The notes beneath the pieces were generated by a model, which did no database searches, was not told the origin of the DNA, and saw only the letters and a program-made list of their open reading frames with translations. The position numbers were made by a program, and so were the translations under genes. From a virus, in IMG/VR virus record IMGVR_UViG_3300030102_005977, positions 1 to 20,061 of that record: a stretch of 20,061 bases of DNA; one strand, given 5' to 3'. Shown one piece after another: positions 8,904 through 16,237 of this stretch (positions within the stretch are counted from its first letter, which is position 1; the number at the start of each line of letters is the position of its first letter).

Positions 8904-8939
8904 AGCCGTCTGGGCCTGCGCCTTGGCGGCTGTTTTTTT
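8904..8939 (+). terminator. Rho-independent terminator between attP core and integrase
   Basis: The stem AGCCGTC (8904-8910) pairs with GGCGGCT (8925-8931) through one G-T wobble. An inner GGGC/GCC extension lies within the loop, and a run of seven T follows at 8933-8939. It would stop rightward late transcription, or host tRNA transcription after integration, before it reaches the integrase. Confidence 0.8.
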
Positions 8940-8943
8940 GGTG

Positions 8944-8980
8944 ACCGTACCGAAAACCGTACCTTTTTTGTATCTGTACC
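8944..8980 (+). repeat. Right-arm repeats ACCGTACC x2 plus a degenerate copy
   Basis: ACCGTACC is at 8944-8951 and 8956-8963 (12 bp apart), with a partial copy CTGTACC at 8974-8980. Same orientation as the three left-arm copies. Together they flank the tRNA core and the terminator, giving a two-armed attP. The last copy touches the operator dyad at the integrase promoter. Confidence 0.65.
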
Positions 8981-8998
8981 TTGTCGCACTACGACAAG
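8980..8998. promoter_or_regulatory. Repressor operator dyad at the integrase promoter
   Basis: Perfect dyad CTTGTCG-N5-CGACAAG. The same 7-bp arms and 5-bp spacer recur at 12958-12976 and, with changes, at 13731-13749 beside the repressor gene. It covers the -35 element of the integrase promoter, so bound repressor would block integrase transcription. Confidence 0.7.
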
Positions 8999-9009
8999 TT
9001 GCTTATATT
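8981..9009 (+). promoter_or_regulatory. Integrase promoter (sigma70-like)
   Basis: -35 TTGTCG at 8981-8986, a 17-bp spacer, and -10 TATATT at 9004-9009. The start of transcription would fall near 9016, followed by AGGGAGG at 9022-9028 and the ATG at 9034. The -35 is half of the operator dyad. Confidence 0.65.
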
Positions 9010-9033
9010 AATACGGTAATTAGGGAGGTTTTC

Positions 9034-10203
9034 ATGGCTAAAACAAAGTGGCTTTTGCCGGTTCGCCAACGCAAAGACGCAGGCACCTGGTTCATCGACG
9101 CACGCAAGATCGGCCTGTCTCAGAAGTATGTGCCAGAGGGTATGCAGTTCTGGACAGAGGATGAAGCTGGCCAGGCTGCGAATCATCTGTGGTCAGATCA
9201 CAATCGCGGGCTGGTCGTCAAAGCTGATCCGGTCACCATCGGCCAAGAAGCTGCCGATGACTTCCTGGCGTTTGTGAAAGGTCGGGCCGAGGTGGGCGAG
9301 ATTCAATCTACCACCCATGCTGAAACGGCGCACAACCTGGCCATCGGTCTGGCAATCAAGATTGACGGCAAGCCAATTGCCAAGCACGACCTGGGCAAGC
9401 TAATCAACCGCGTCACGTTTGAGCGTGTTCGACTTGCGATACTCCGCGCTGTGCAGACGGAAGGCAAAAGTGCGTCCACACAGCAGCACCGCGTCAAGGC
9501 ACTCAAGCAGTTCTTCAACTACTGCTGGGGCAAGGGTTGGGTCACATTGAACCCAATGGACAAGATGGAGCTGACCGGCACTAGCGCCCGCCAGAACCGT
9601 GCGCCGCGCATCCAGACAGAAACTATCCGATGCCTGATGCGTGACGGCTTGGTCGGTGAGACCTTGGTCAGCCGTGCGATGGTTGCGGTCGCTCTGGCCA
9701 CTGGGATGCGCCAGGGTGAGCTACGCGGCCTGCAGTGGCAGGACATCGACTTTGAATTAGAGGAAGTTCGCATCGAGCGTGCGGTCAAGAAGGACGGCAA
9801 GATCGGCCCACCGAAAACTAAAGCTGGCTTTCGTACCATCGACATCGAGCCTAATGCCTTGCAGCTTGCACGCGAATGGAGACTGCAGTCACGCCACAGC
9901 CGTCCGACAGACTTTGTGTTTGCCACCGCTGCTGGCTTTCCTAAGCAGTACAAAACACTTTCCGCACTGATGGATCGCGCATCGGATCGTGCCGGCATTG
10001 AGCGGATGCTGTGGGGCGATATGCGCCACTTCTTTGCCTCAACGCAGCTTAGCAAGCTAGGTGAAGACTGGCCTGAAGTGTCCAGGCAGATGGGGCATGA
10101 GGATGAGGCGTTCACAATGCGCCAATACGGCCACTATGTTAAGAACGCTGACAAGAAGGCCAAGGTGAAGAACAACATGGCCGAGGCAATCTGGGGCAAA
10201 TGA
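9034..10203 (+). CDS. int: Tyrosine recombinase integrase
   Basis: 389 aa from ATG 9034, chosen because AGGGAGG lies 5 nt upstream; the frame is open further up, but that would run through the promoter and arm sites. The N-terminal part (1-60) should bind arm sites. The SAM-like core-binding domain is at about 65-180 (STQQHRVKALKQFFNYCWGK). The catalytic domain follows, with box I R226 in ATGMRQGELRGL, a beta-hairpin Lys in PPKTKAG (K261 or K263), box II R331 in WGDMRHFFAS, H355 in MGHED and the nucleophile Y365 in QYGHY. The first His of the usual H-x-x-R in box II is Gly here. It would catalyse integration at tRNA-Ala via the adjacent attP. Confidence 0.92.
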   Translation: MAKTKWLLPVRQRKDAGTWFIDARKIGLSQKYVPEGMQFWTEDEAGQAANHLWSDHNRGLVVKADPVTIGQEAADDFLAFVKGRAEVGEIQSTTHAETAHNLAIGLAIKIDGKPIAKHDLGKLINRVTFERVRLAILRAVQTEGKSASTQQHRVKALKQFFNYCWGKGWVTLNPMDKMELTGTSARQNRAPRIQTETIRCLMRDGLVGETLVSRAMVAVALATGMRQGELRGLQWQDIDFELEEVRIERAVKKDGKIGPPKTKAGFRTIDIEPNALQLAREWRLQSRHSRPTDFVFATAAGFPKQYKTLSALMDRASDRAGIERMLWGDMRHFFASTQLSKLGEDWPEVSRQMGHEDEAFTMRQYGHYVKNADKKAKVKNNMAEAIWGK

Positions 10204-12986: not shown

Positions 12987-13682
12987 TTAGTCATCAAGAA
13001 TAATTTCAACACCGCGCAATTTTGGCCTAAATGAAGCTGATAGTGATGCAGCGGCCCAAACCAACTTTTGGCCCCGCAAAAGCATATCAGTGTTGCTGTT
13101 GTGAACCGTGTACAGGCCGCCAGGCTCTGGATAGACAGTGCCGTTCATCAATCTGGTTTCGACACCACCGTCAACAATGGGCGTTTCAAGCAAAACATAG
13201 GCTTCATGCTGGATTGATGCCTCAGAAACAAATCCCTTTTCTATTGGCTCACGCTCAACATATTCAACAGCGTTTTTCCATTCTTCCCACAACCCAGAGT
13301 AGCCTGGCTCCGCTGACCAGATAATTGCGGCTGTGTTGGTTTGCATATAGGTTTGCAAATACACCTTGCCCCTCGTTTTACCGGCACTGATTTCACGATC
13401 CACGCGAACGCCAGATGGAGGACAATTTTCATCTTCTGGCTTACAGCGGACAATTTTGCAGTAACCCACGATCGGGACTGGGGGCAACGCAAACAGCACG
13501 TCTTGAGCGGTGCAACCCAAAATTTTGGCGTAATGCTCTGCGTCCTGCAGTGTGATGTTGGTGTGGCCATTAACCTGGCGCGACAAGTTCTCAGGCGTAA
13601 TGCCCTTGAGGGCAGCAACCTCGCGTTTTGTCATATTTGCCTGACGGATCATTTGATTCAGGTTATTTGGCATAGATAGCAT
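12987..13682 (-). CDS. CI-like phage repressor (HTH_XRE N-terminus)
   Basis: 231 aa from ATG 13682; a second ATG three codons in (13673) is an equally good start. Residues 10-65 form a helix-turn-helix of XRE/lambda-repressor type: IRQANMTKREVAALKGITPE, NLSRQVNGHTNITLQDAEHYAKILG. Then comes VPIVGY, where LexA/CI S24 domains usually begin, but no Ala-Gly cleavage site or the G-x-S-M serine box follows. The C-terminal ~150 residues are otherwise unfamiliar. It probably binds the CTTGTCG-N5-CGACAAG operators and maintains lysogeny. Divergent to the cro-like gene. Confidence 0.75.
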   Translation of the reverse strand: MLSMPNNLNQMIRQANMTKREVAALKGITPENLSRQVNGHTNITLQDAEHYAKILGCTAQDVLFALPPVPIVGYCKIVRCKPEDENCPPSGVRVDREISAGKTRGKVYLQTYMQTNTAAIIWSAEPGYSGLWEEWKNAVEYVEREPIEKGFVSEASIQHEAYVLLETPIVDGGVETRLMNGTVYPEPGGLYTVHNSNTDMLLRGQKLVWAAASLSASFRPKLRGVEIILDD

Positions 13683-13767: not shown

Positions 13768-13986
13768 ATGACTTTAGATGATTGGCGAAATGAACAGGGT
13801 TGGTCGAAATCGCTGCTGGCGCGTCAGCTTGGTGTGCCACAGACCATCACTGTCACGCGCTGGTGCCACCCCCTCGATGATCCGAGGCGGTCTGTGCCAA
13901 ACCCCGATTATATGCAGCGCATCATCAACCTGACTGGCGGGAAGGTCACACCTAACGACTTCTTCCCCATGTCGGCAGATGGGTAA
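13768..13986 (+). CDS. Cro-like HTH regulator (72 aa)
   Basis: Start at ATG 13768; an in-frame TTG at 13732 would place the N-terminus inside the operator/promoter and was rejected. The protein has a helix-turn-helix (GWSKSLLARQLGVPQTITVT, then RWCHPLDD), in the common form 'L-A-x-x-L-G-V-x-x-x-T-V-x-R-W' with PNPDYMQRIINLTGGKVTPNDFF after it. This layout is that of short phage regulators of Cro type. It is divergent to the repressor and first in the rightward early operon. There is no Shine-Dalgarno and the mRNA may be leaderless. Stop overlaps the next gene by 8 nt. Confidence 0.75.
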   Translation: MTLDDWRNEQGWSKSLLARQLGVPQTITVTRWCHPLDDPRRSVPNPDYMQRIINLTGGKVTPNDFFPMSADG

Positions 13987-14320
13987 GGCGTCACGCGACA
14001 AAGGCTACAGGGCCGAGAACAGCATCCGCAAGAAGCTGGAAGCTAACGGCCTGGATTGCTACCGCGTCCCGCTGTCAGGCGGTGCCGCCATAAAAAACGA
14101 CCTGGTGATCCGCAAGGGTGACCCGCTGCCAGTTGACCAATGGGAGCTGGAGGTCAAATGCCGCGCCAACGGCTTCAAGCAAATTTATGACTGGATGGAA
14201 GGCGCTGATGCGCTGGTGCTGAAGGCTGACCGCAAGCCTGAGCTAGTGGTGCTTGACCTGGATGACTTCTGCCTGCTGCTGCGTGGCCAAGATGGTGATA
14301 CCGATGCTGGCTCACGTTGA
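13979..14320 (+). CDS. Hjc/VRR-NUC-like PD-(D/E)XK nuclease, putative Holliday junction resolvase
   Basis: 113 aa. The N-terminus MGKASRDKGYRAENSIRKKL carries the conserved G-x-x-x-E (E13). It is followed by VPLSGGAAIKNDLVI (D41) and WELEVKCR (E58, K60), then an amphipathic FKQIYDWM segment. This E...D...E-x-K arrangement is that of archaeal Hjc-type resolvases and related phage nucleases. It would cut branched DNA intermediates in replication or packaging. It starts within the end of the cro-like gene and overlaps the methyltransferase start by 17 nt. Confidence 0.75.
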   Translation: MGKASRDKGYRAENSIRKKLEANGLDCYRVPLSGGAAIKNDLVIRKGDPLPVDQWELEVKCRANGFKQIYDWMEGADALVLKADRKPELVVLDLDDFCLLLRGQDGDTDAGSR

Positions 14321-15446
14321 TCTGTGTTCAGGCATCGGCGGTTTCGCCTTGGGCTTTCAGTGGGCTGGCCTGTCCCGCCCGGTGCTGTTCTGTGACATCG
14401 AGGCATGGAGCCGCAAGGTGCTGGCTAAGCATTGGCCTGATGTCCCTATTTCAAATGACGTGAAGGAGTTAGCCAGTGACCCAAGACGACTTGTTCCAGA
14501 CCATGACATCCTCACAGCAGGATACCCATGCCAGCCGTTCAGCCTTGCCGGCAAGCGACGAGGCGAGAAAGATGACCGTCACATCTGGCCAGAAATATTT
14601 GCCATTGTGCAAGCAAAGCGGCCGCGTTGGTGCGTTTTTGAGAATGTTTCTGGACACATCAACATGGGCCTCGACCAAGTGCTATCTGACTTGGAAGGTG
14701 AAGGCTACACCGTCCAACCATTTGTTGTTCCAGCTTGCGCCGTCGATGCCCCGCACAGACGCGATCGAGTCTGGATCATTGCTGCACACGCCGACAGCGA
14801 AAGCCAATCAGATGTCACCGGACATGGTGAAGAAGGGCAGTGGGTGGGGCGTGCCGCGTCAGATGATGCCGACGCCAACAGCCAGCGACCATATAGAGCG
14901 GAACAGCACCAGCAGCGAGGCGGTAAATCCGTTGACGGGCAAGAGCGTGAGCTTGGATCGGTTTGTAAAGTTCTGGCCGGACGAGGAGACCCAGCAGAGC
15001 GGTCAGCCGCGGATGTGGCCCACGCCGGATGCCAGCGACAGGGGGCCGAGGTCAGCGGACTTGGTGGTCAATCAATCAACGGTTCAGCGGCGGGACAGCG
15101 GACAGAAACGCGGGATGGATTTGCAGACGGCCGCCAAGTTTTTCCCTACGCAGACAGCGAACGAGGATGCAGCAGGGACGCCAAACGGCAAGATGCAAGC
15201 GATGCTGGGCAACCATCCGGATGTCAGAGGCACGACGCCAGAAGAGTGGGCGCAGGGGTCACTCAACCCAGCGTGGGTGGAGTGGCTAATGGGCTATCCA
15301 CCTGGTTGGACGAACCTAGAGACATCCCAAGAGTAGCAACCGGCGTGAAGCAGAGGGCAGCACGGCTCAAGGGGCTGGGCAATGCCATTGTGCCGCAAAT
15401 CGCCATGCAGATCGGCCTGACGATCAAGGCGGTCGAACATGGCTAG
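14304..15446 (+). CDS. DNA (cytosine-5) methyltransferase
   Basis: 380 aa from ATG 14304; ATG 14292 is an alternative. Ordered motifs are I (DLCSGIGGFALGF), IV (GYPCQPFSLAGKRRG, catalytic C76), VI (CVFENVSGH), VIII (APHRRDRVWIIAAH) and X (RLKGLGNAIVPQIA). Between VIII and X the target-recognition region (about 165-335) is strongly biased to Gln, Gly, Asp, Arg and Ser (e.g. DADANSQRPYRAEQHQQRGG), because the same DNA also codes for a second protein in the +1 frame. It would methylate cytosine in a sequence not predictable here, to protect phage DNA. No cognate restriction gene is seen. Confidence 0.85.
   Translation: MLAHVDLCSGIGGFALGFQWAGLSRPVLFCDIEAWSRKVLAKHWPDVPISNDVKELASDPRRLVPDHDILTAGYPCQPFSLAGKRRGEKDDRHIWPEIFAIVQAKRPRWCVFENVSGHINMGLDQVLSDLEGEGYTVQPFVVPACAVDAPHRRDRVWIIAAHADSESQSDVTGHGEEGQWVGRAASDDADANSQRPYRAEQHQQRGGKSVDGQERELGSVCKVLAGRGDPAERSAADVAHAGCQRQGAEVSGLGGQSINGSAAGQRTETRDGFADGRQVFPYADSERGCSRDAKRQDASDAGQPSGCQRHDARRVGAGVTQPSVGGVANGLSTWLDEPRDIPRVATGVKQRAARLKGLGNAIVPQIAMQIGLTIKAVEHG
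14476..15336 (+). CDS. Overprinted gene within the C5 methyltransferase (286 aa)
   Basis: GTG start at 14476 with GAAGGAG at 14462-14468, spacing 7 nt, in a frame +1 to the methyltransferase, and open for 861 nt. The protein begins TQDDLFQTMTSSQQDTHASR. It has a helical LCKQSGRVGAFLRMFLDTST and KCYLTWKVKATP, repeated (L/M/W)PTPTASD-like units (HTPTAKAN, MPTPTASDH, WPTPDASDR, FPTQTANED), and the C-terminal SLNPAWVEWLMGYPPGWTNL. That ending is one I recognise from many phage proteins that are often mis-labelled as methyltransferase. Frame, ribosome site and motifs support real translation. Function unknown, possibly linked to DNA modification. Confidence 0.7.
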   Translation: MTQDDLFQTMTSSQQDTHASRSALPASDEARKMTVTSGQKYLPLCKQSGRVGAFLRMFLDTSTWASTKCYLTWKVKATPSNHLLFQLAPSMPRTDAIESGSLLHTPTAKANQMSPDMVKKGSGWGVPRQMMPTPTASDHIERNSTSSEAVNPLTGKSVSLDRFVKFWPDEETQQSGQPRMWPTPDASDRGPRSADLVVNQSTVQRRDSGQKRGMDLQTAAKFFPTQTANEDAAGTPNGKMQAMLGNHPDVRGTTPEEWAQGSLNPAWVEWLMGYPPGWTNLETSQE

Positions 15447-15672
15447 AGGGTTCAGCACCATGCTGGCGCGGAAAATCCGCATCTCCACGGTGCCAGGTGA
15501 GTGGCGTGAGGTGCTGGAGTGCGAACACTGCGATGCCCAGGGCGAATGTGAGGTCGAGATCGCTGTGCCGGATTATCTGCGCGGCGGCGACCTCACCACC
15601 GGTTTTGGCCAATGTCCCGTCTGTGAGGGCCGGGGCTATGTAGAGCTGCCGGAAGATGAAGACGATGAGTAG
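15439..15672 (+). CDS. Small zinc-finger protein (DnaJ-type Cys motifs, 77 aa)
   Basis: ATG overlaps the methyltransferase stop by 8 nt. It has CEHCDAQGECEVE at about 28-40 and CPVCEGRGYVELPED near 59-73, two C-x-x-C knuckles, the second in the C-x-x-C-x-G-x-G form of DnaJ-type zinc domains. The tail is acidic (EDEDDE). Four Cys can bind one zinc. It may be a nucleic-acid or protein adaptor in the early operon; no enzyme motif is present. Overlaps the next gene's likely start by 8 nt. Confidence 0.6.
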   Translation: MARGFSTMLARKIRISTVPGEWREVLECEHCDAQGECEVEIAVPDYLRGGDLTTGFGQCPVCEGRGYVELPEDEDDE

Positions 15673-16237
15673 CGCCAGCCTACAAGCTGGCATGAAGCTC
15701 ATCGGCGTCAATGATCGCGGCGACCGGCAGAAAGATGACTTCTACGCCACGCCTGCCGCAAGCACAGAAGCCCTGCTTTCAGTTGAGAAGTTTGAGGGCA
15801 GGATCTGGGAGCCGTGCTGTGGGCAGGGGCATATATCGGAGGTGCTGTCTGCCGCAGGCTACGAGGTGCAAAGCACCGATCTGGTTGATCGTGGCTACGG
15901 CACCCCTCGCGTTGACTTCCTTATGGAGACGCAGCGCTGCGAGAACATCGTGACCAACCCACCCTATGGCAAGCTGGCGCTGCCAATGGTGGCCCACGCT
16001 ACGCAGTTGGCCAGCCGCAAGGTGGCCATGCTGTTGAAGTTGCAGTTCCTTGAGGGTGTAGAACGCAAAGCCTTCTTTGCTCACACGCCGCCGGCAAGAG
16101 TTCACGTTTTTTCAAGCCGGCAAAGTCTTATGAAGAATGGTGATGACTACAGCGACGGCCCAGGCGGCATGATGGCGCTGGCCTGGTTTGTCTGGGAGCG
16201 GGGGCATCGTGGTGACACGGTGGTCAAGTGGCTATGA
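15665..16237 (+). CDS. N6-adenine-type DNA methyltransferase
   Basis: 190 aa from ATG 15665; ATG 15656 is in frame and also possible. FYATPAASTEALL is typical of phage Dam-like enzymes, followed by motif I-like IWEPCCGQGHISEVL (SAM-binding), an acidic STDLVDRGYG and the catalytic NPPYG (98-101) in ENIVTNPPYG. The C-terminal AHTPPARVHVFSSR and GMMALAWFVWERG complete the fold. It would methylate adenine (or possibly cytosine N4) in phage DNA. Sits two genes after the C5 methyltransferase, suggesting a two-enzyme protection set. Length is short but motif-complete. Confidence 0.8.
   Translation: MSSASLQAGMKLIGVNDRGDRQKDDFYATPAASTEALLSVEKFEGRIWEPCCGQGHISEVLSAAGYEVQSTDLVDRGYGTPRVDFLMETQRCENIVTNPPYGKLALPMVAHATQLASRKVAMLLKLQFLEGVERKAFFAHTPPARVHVFSSRQSLMKNGDDYSDGPGGMMALAWFVWERGHRGDTVVKWL

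Follow-up and report, generated by a model that had tools for sequence, protein, structure and literature searches.

The DNA analysed here, referred to below as the window, is a single viral contig of 20,061 bases that is most likely a fragment of a temperate phage, judging by its integrase, repressor and terminase-like genes. It carries a gene for a C5-cytosine DNA methyltransferase in which a second long frame is open on the same strand. Both frames, A (alpha) and B (beta), are open where a preliminary description of the window had placed them, B entirely within A and +1 relative to it, and the Shine-Dalgarno sequence, its 7-nt spacing and the PTP-like units mentioned there are also present (Table 1). 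The gene is flanked by a resolvase gene and by a putative second DNA methyltransferase gene, and a promoter scan found no promoter.

Motifs I, IV, VI, VIII and X, together with the profile match, place A among the C5-cytosine DNA methyltransferases (PF00145). The Pfam DNA_methylase match (E 3e-39) covers only residues 4-168, stopping right after motif VIII, and HhaI, the top match in the PDB, aligns over residues 3-165. No motif-IX-like stretch is recognisable in A. Taken alone, A is without the target-recognition domain (TRD) and motif IX that belong between motifs VIII and X of the same chain, since the Pfam match ends at residue 168, nothing resembles motif IX, and the module region described below is selected in frame B. 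In most members of the family A reads W..EPxVGRVAxGIPxRVDRLKGLGNA directly over the motif-IX-like end of B. It had been pointed out that the same bases spell VGGVANGL in A (15273-15296) and WVEWLMG in B (15274-15294), which is the case; the further view of VGGVANGL as the canonical stretch before motif X needs amending, as A of the window has ~17 extra residues here and a second similar stretch, WLDEPRDIPRVATGV, stands between VGGVANGL and motif X.

The protein encoded by frame B ends in the motif-IX-like sequence LNPxWVEWLMGYPxGW. It matches PHROG 1008 (phrog_1008, E 7e-34), a family labelled "DNA methyltransferase", and has no match in Pfam, NCBIfam or the PDB sequences; its N-terminal region showed no likeness to anything known in the Pfam and PDB sequence searches. 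Matches of the B profile to Csf1 were dismissed as chance matches. AlphaFold modelled B on its own with low confidence (mean pLDDT 59), doing best in the N-terminal conserved region, and a PDB search with this model found no relatives.

Table 1. Features of the methyltransferase locus and of its surroundings in the window
Feature	Position	Strand	Remarks
Integrase	8923-10203	+	
cI-like repressor	12987-13682	-	
RusA-like / PDDEXK Holliday-junction resolvase	13979-14320	+	3' end shares 17 bases with the start of A
Frame A (alpha), C5-cytosine methyltransferase catalytic chain (best reading)	14304..15446	+	ATG, 380 aa; phrog_363; Pfam PF00145
A motif I DLCSGIGGFALG, AdoMet binding	14319-14354	+	
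B Shine-Dalgarno GAAGGAG	14462..14468	+	within A codons (V-K-E-L); 7 nt before GTG at 14476
Frame B (beta), nested +1 gene: N-terminal region, WPTP modules, motif-IX-like end	14476..15336	+	GTG, 286 aa
A motif IV GYPCQPFS, catalytic PCQ	14520..14552	+	
B N-terminal conserved region TSGQK...YLTWK...LLFQLAPSMPRT	14581..14775	+	overlaps A motifs VI-VIII
A motif VI ENV	14640..14660	+	
A motif VIII PHRRDRVW	14751..14783	+	
B module 1 LHTPTAKA	14782..14865	+	class 4
B module 2 MPTPTASD	14866..15015	+	singleton class
B module 3 WPTPDASD	15016..15141	+	class 9
B module 4 FPTQTANE (FPTQTANEDAAG...)	15142..15258	+	class 2
B motif-IX-like end SLNPAWVEWLMGYPPGWTNL	15259..15318	+	partly under A VGGVANGL
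A motif X GLGNAIVP	15372-15395	+	3' of B stop
Putative second DNA methyltransferase	15656-16237	+	directly downstream; phrog_799, E 6e-63; NPPY motif as in amino-methyltransferases

Selection on the nested frame

The loci used for comparison were gathered with B as the query, with the catalytic part of A alone as the query, from bacterial assemblies and from phage records, and were checked together. A relative of A was accompanied by an open relative of B in the +1 frame at 194 of 194 loci, with none broken; B ends inside A at 186 of them and past the stop codon of A at 8. Among the loci found through A, where B had no part in the selection, B was present in all 78 that were new. Seven apparent cases of an A homologue without B, from the Hades and Kagunavirus sets, were rejected as such, since in each the +1 frame is open and only its ending diverges (for example LLGFP, LMAFP or LQGYP); this reading of exceptions set aside short contigs and a few other loci (L250, L260, L327, L328 and L330).

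When synonymous codons of the window were shuffled without altering the protein or codon usage of A, frame B acquired a mean of 4.2 stops and was free of them in only 0.24% of 20,000 shuffles, and over 148 loci the same procedure led to an expectation of 6.5 stops per locus in B, against 0 observed. The reverse shuffle, of the synonymous codons of B, raised ~8 stops in A, and it follows from the two results that both frames have been kept open. The start of B has also left its mark on codon choice in A. An SD-like site precedes it at 112 of 135 loci, in the general pattern AAGGAG-TTAGC-N-RTG; at the Shine-Dalgarno sequence Lys is encoded by AAG in 88 of 89 cases (background 63%, p 9e-15), and at the start Leu is encoded by TTA in 64 of 84 (background 28%, p 2e-17), p-values that are optimistic because the loci share descent, although the effects are large.

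Two further comparisons bear on the protein itself. In the stretch before motif VIII, B is more similar between loci than A imposes (z>2 in 135 of 146 loci, median z 6); z-scores for the module region were left unused because an A-based alignment is unreliable there. Fractions of differences at the three codon positions of A (A1/A2/A3), taken from 24 independent, non-overlapping pairs with alignments that are loose in the module region, were 0.172/0.099/0.351 in the A-only N end, 0.084/0.038/0.141 from the B start to motif VIII, 0.273/0.132/0.136 in the module region, 0.093/0.028/0.065 over the motif-IX-like end of B and 0.154/0.131/0.385 in the A-only C end. The peak in the module region falls at A1, and because A1 is the third codon position of B (B3), this region has the signature of a sequence coding in frame B. 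Before the modules and over the motif-IX-like end, the same figures point to mutual constraint of both frames.

A contrary reading is that frame B is untranslated, open through codon bias, and similar between loci as a by-product of A. The N-terminal half of B does lie over the best-conserved part of A, which by itself yields some similarity in B, as seen in the null means. We nevertheless give this reading almost no credence, as it is already contradicted by the synonymous shuffles, the codon-position switch in the modules, the codon choice at the start site and the unbroken series of open frames; a chance open frame was likewise rejected by the open-frame counts, the shuffles, and the codon-position and similarity tests. 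On this comparative evidence B is a real gene, selected as a protein along its whole length and not a by-product of A, and the stretch of A between motifs VIII and X, its apparent TRD, is mainly a shadow of B. The preliminary description had named three findings that would speak against overprinting, i.e., a broken frame B, a Shine-Dalgarno sequence that is not conserved, and no constraint beyond that due to A; in the homologues the frame proved intact, the site was kept and the extra constraint was present.

Homology of B and variation of its modules

The second half of B consists of 1-8, mostly 2-4, tandem units of ~30-50 aa that start with [WLF]xTPxAxD (WPTP modules). By similarity these fall into ~40 recurring classes plus singletons, and 94 arrangements were found in 122 B proteins. 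Replacement has affected 42% of the modules in comparisons of loci that are 95-99% alike in the catalytic part. The window and locus L010, for example, have catalytic parts 96% alike and share no module at >=60% (best 0.51), while the modules it has in common with locus L009 are 3 (98%) and 4 (92%) but not 1 and 2. The same class occurs twice in one protein in 2 of 93 arrangements, against an expectation of 8.4 when positions are preserved (P 0.003), and class 2, to which module 4 of the window belongs, is always the final module in the 17 distinct arrangements in which it occurs. This pattern would look like that expected of tandem recognition domains with different specificity, and each module presumably recognises a DNA sequence. 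Our searches of the open-access literature for overlapping phage methyltransferase genes returned no account of the module system, and the system, with its combinatorial composition and wholesale swaps between near-identical catalytic frames, appears to be undescribed so far.

The C-terminal half of B is homologous to part of a one-chain enzyme. HHalign aligns B residues 129-283 with residues 221-411 of single-chain actinophage enzymes (97%, E 1.3e-10), a segment that lies between motifs VIII and X. Mycobacteriophages Moonbeam and Ramsey and many relatives encode the whole stretch from motif I to motif X in a single frame, with LPTP units and EWMMGWPxGW in between, and the one protein Ramsey gp69 has matches to the A family (phrog_363) and, C-terminally, to the B family (phrog_1008). 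The AlphaFold model of a single-chain relative has a confident core and IX-X part, with the modules <50, and its nearest folds are HhaI and HaeIII. A split enzyme results in JewelBug, Geodirt, L220 and L222, where the +1 frame holds TRD-IX-X; a nested B, with motif X once more read in A, is the layout of the window and of the Paenibacillus, Hades, Kagunavirus and Jedunavirus types. Our identification of motif IX in B draws on its position, its spacing to motif X, its likeness to the canonical motif and this homology. The preliminary description had B-type endings as stand-alone proteins of many phages, often labelled methyltransferase; the label is that of PHROG 1008, and the proteins themselves, among loci read in both frames, are nested in or overlap A or are fused into single-chain enzymes rather than standing alone.

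Several arrangements vary on these layouts. In Gordonia phage Gudmit (L091:2387-3772), the LPTP modules of a single gene switch frames, the earlier ones being read in +1 and the later ones in A. At L052:2489-3889 and L077:2489-3817, B extends past the stop of A and more WPTP modules follow the first motif-IX-like stretch. The number of LPTP modules varies from 1 to ~5 among the closely related single-chain enzymes of mycobacteriophages (L204-L229). A distant enzyme family, in Stenotrophomonas phage SBP3.1phi2.1 (L095:2501-3677), has the same layout, with a +1 frame that ends in LNPCFGDWVMGWVTGWSDL and is unannotated as such.

A probable two-chain methyltransferase and its rivals

The best reading of these data is that A is the catalytic chain and B the specificity and motif-IX subunit of a two-chain C5-cytosine DNA methyltransferase made from overlapping frames, to which we assign a probability of about 0.83. 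Comparison of loci establishes that B is selected, that it carries the VIII-X segment of single-chain relatives, that A is without this segment and that modules are exchanged. The preliminary description had offered two interpretations, a recognition region of A remodelled by dual coding or an overprinted B that helps A as its specificity partner, and these findings favour the second. Frame A would provide AdoMet binding, the catalytic Cys loop, motif VIII and motif X. From its own Shine-Dalgarno sequence inside A, B would be translated as a second chain composed of the conserved N-terminal region, the exchangeable recognition modules and motif IX. We infer that the two chains assemble into an active enzyme, B taking the place of the TRD and motif IX of a one-chain enzyme, and that the complex methylates phage DNA at sequences picked by the modules, perhaps one target to each, presumably as protection against host restriction. 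The stretch of A over the modules would have to stay open for the ribosome to reach motif X and would otherwise be mostly a passenger.

Two other readings accept B as coding. A programmed frameshift near motif VIII could join the recognition segment of B to A, giving a hybrid of I-VIII, TRD and IX with the nested start secondary, and the order of parts would then be exactly that of the single-chain relatives, the frames being +1 apart throughout. We consider this unlikely, given that the start and Shine-Dalgarno sequence of B are conserved against the codon background of A, that the first 100 residues of B, which would be useless, are conserved beyond the level A imposes, and that a second shift back would be needed to gain motif X. 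Alternatively, B could be an independent protein, such as a regulator or an anti-restriction or nuclease partner, and A an enzyme complete by itself; A does retain motif X and a long VIII-X segment, and the N-terminal region of B has no known likeness. This seems very unlikely to us in view of the homology of B to what one-chain methyltransferases carry between motifs VIII and X, the evolution of the corresponding stretch of A as a shadow of B, and the finding of no B without an A-type frame among the loci read.

Known systems and the place of the nested modules

Split enzymes are a known kind. M.EaeI is a two-polypeptide C5 methyltransferase like M.EcoHK31I, and the gene for the small chain of the latter, as reported by Lee, Kam and Shaw in 1995, lies within that for the large chain in a different frame, an arrangement to which the nested second chain of the window corresponds. 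By its published definition M.EcoHK31I (YGGCCR) has a larger polypeptide with motifs I-VIII and X and a smaller one with motif IX, the division also seen between the two chains of the window, but its TRD is predicted on the large chain (PMC3404938), whereas the selected frame in that region of the window is B, with four modules from a combinatorial set. Plasmid searches returned relatives but no named M.EcoHK31I. The alpha and beta chains of M.AquI likewise make up a C5 methyltransferase, divided within its variable region (PMC3404938). Its beta chain, however, holds motifs IX and X where B holds only IX, which brings it nearer to the JewelBug/Geodirt layout. The multispecific methyltransferases of Bacillus phages (SPR, phi3T, rho11, H2) are single-chain enzymes read in one frame. 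Their tandem target-recognition domains confer several targets (PMC8936443), and the tandem exchangeable modules of B resemble them in arrangement, the feature by which we compare them, but lie in the other frame.

The same nesting, already annotated as an "internal gene" or as a second "DNA methyltransferase", is found in Paenibacillus larvae phages (Shelly gp56, Lily gp63) and in PHROG 1008; we found no explanation for these internal genes, and none is given in the searched passages of the 48-genome paper. A second frame is likewise hidden in the methylase genes of ShiLan and other actinophages, which have out-of-frame HNH insertions (PMC11855218), but those are mobile insertions encoding nucleases, and B is a constant part of its locus with TRD/IX homology.

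What sets the window apart is its nested set of combinatorial, putative recognition cassettes. We lean slightly towards the view that it represents a widespread class of phage methyltransferases in which such cassettes, carried in a frame nested within their own catalytic gene, are exchanged between phages with both frames kept open, allowing rapid shifts of methylation pattern in step with the restriction systems of hosts. If this is true, M.EcoHK31I would no longer be a lone curiosity but an instance of a common phage design, many genes annotated as "DNA methyltransferase" or "hypothetical" would be specificity subunits, and the ~40 exchangeable classes would amount to a natural library for the recognition code of C5 methyltransferases. 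The locus is also an unusually clean case in which comparison reveals, stretch by stretch, which of two overlapping frames selection acts on.
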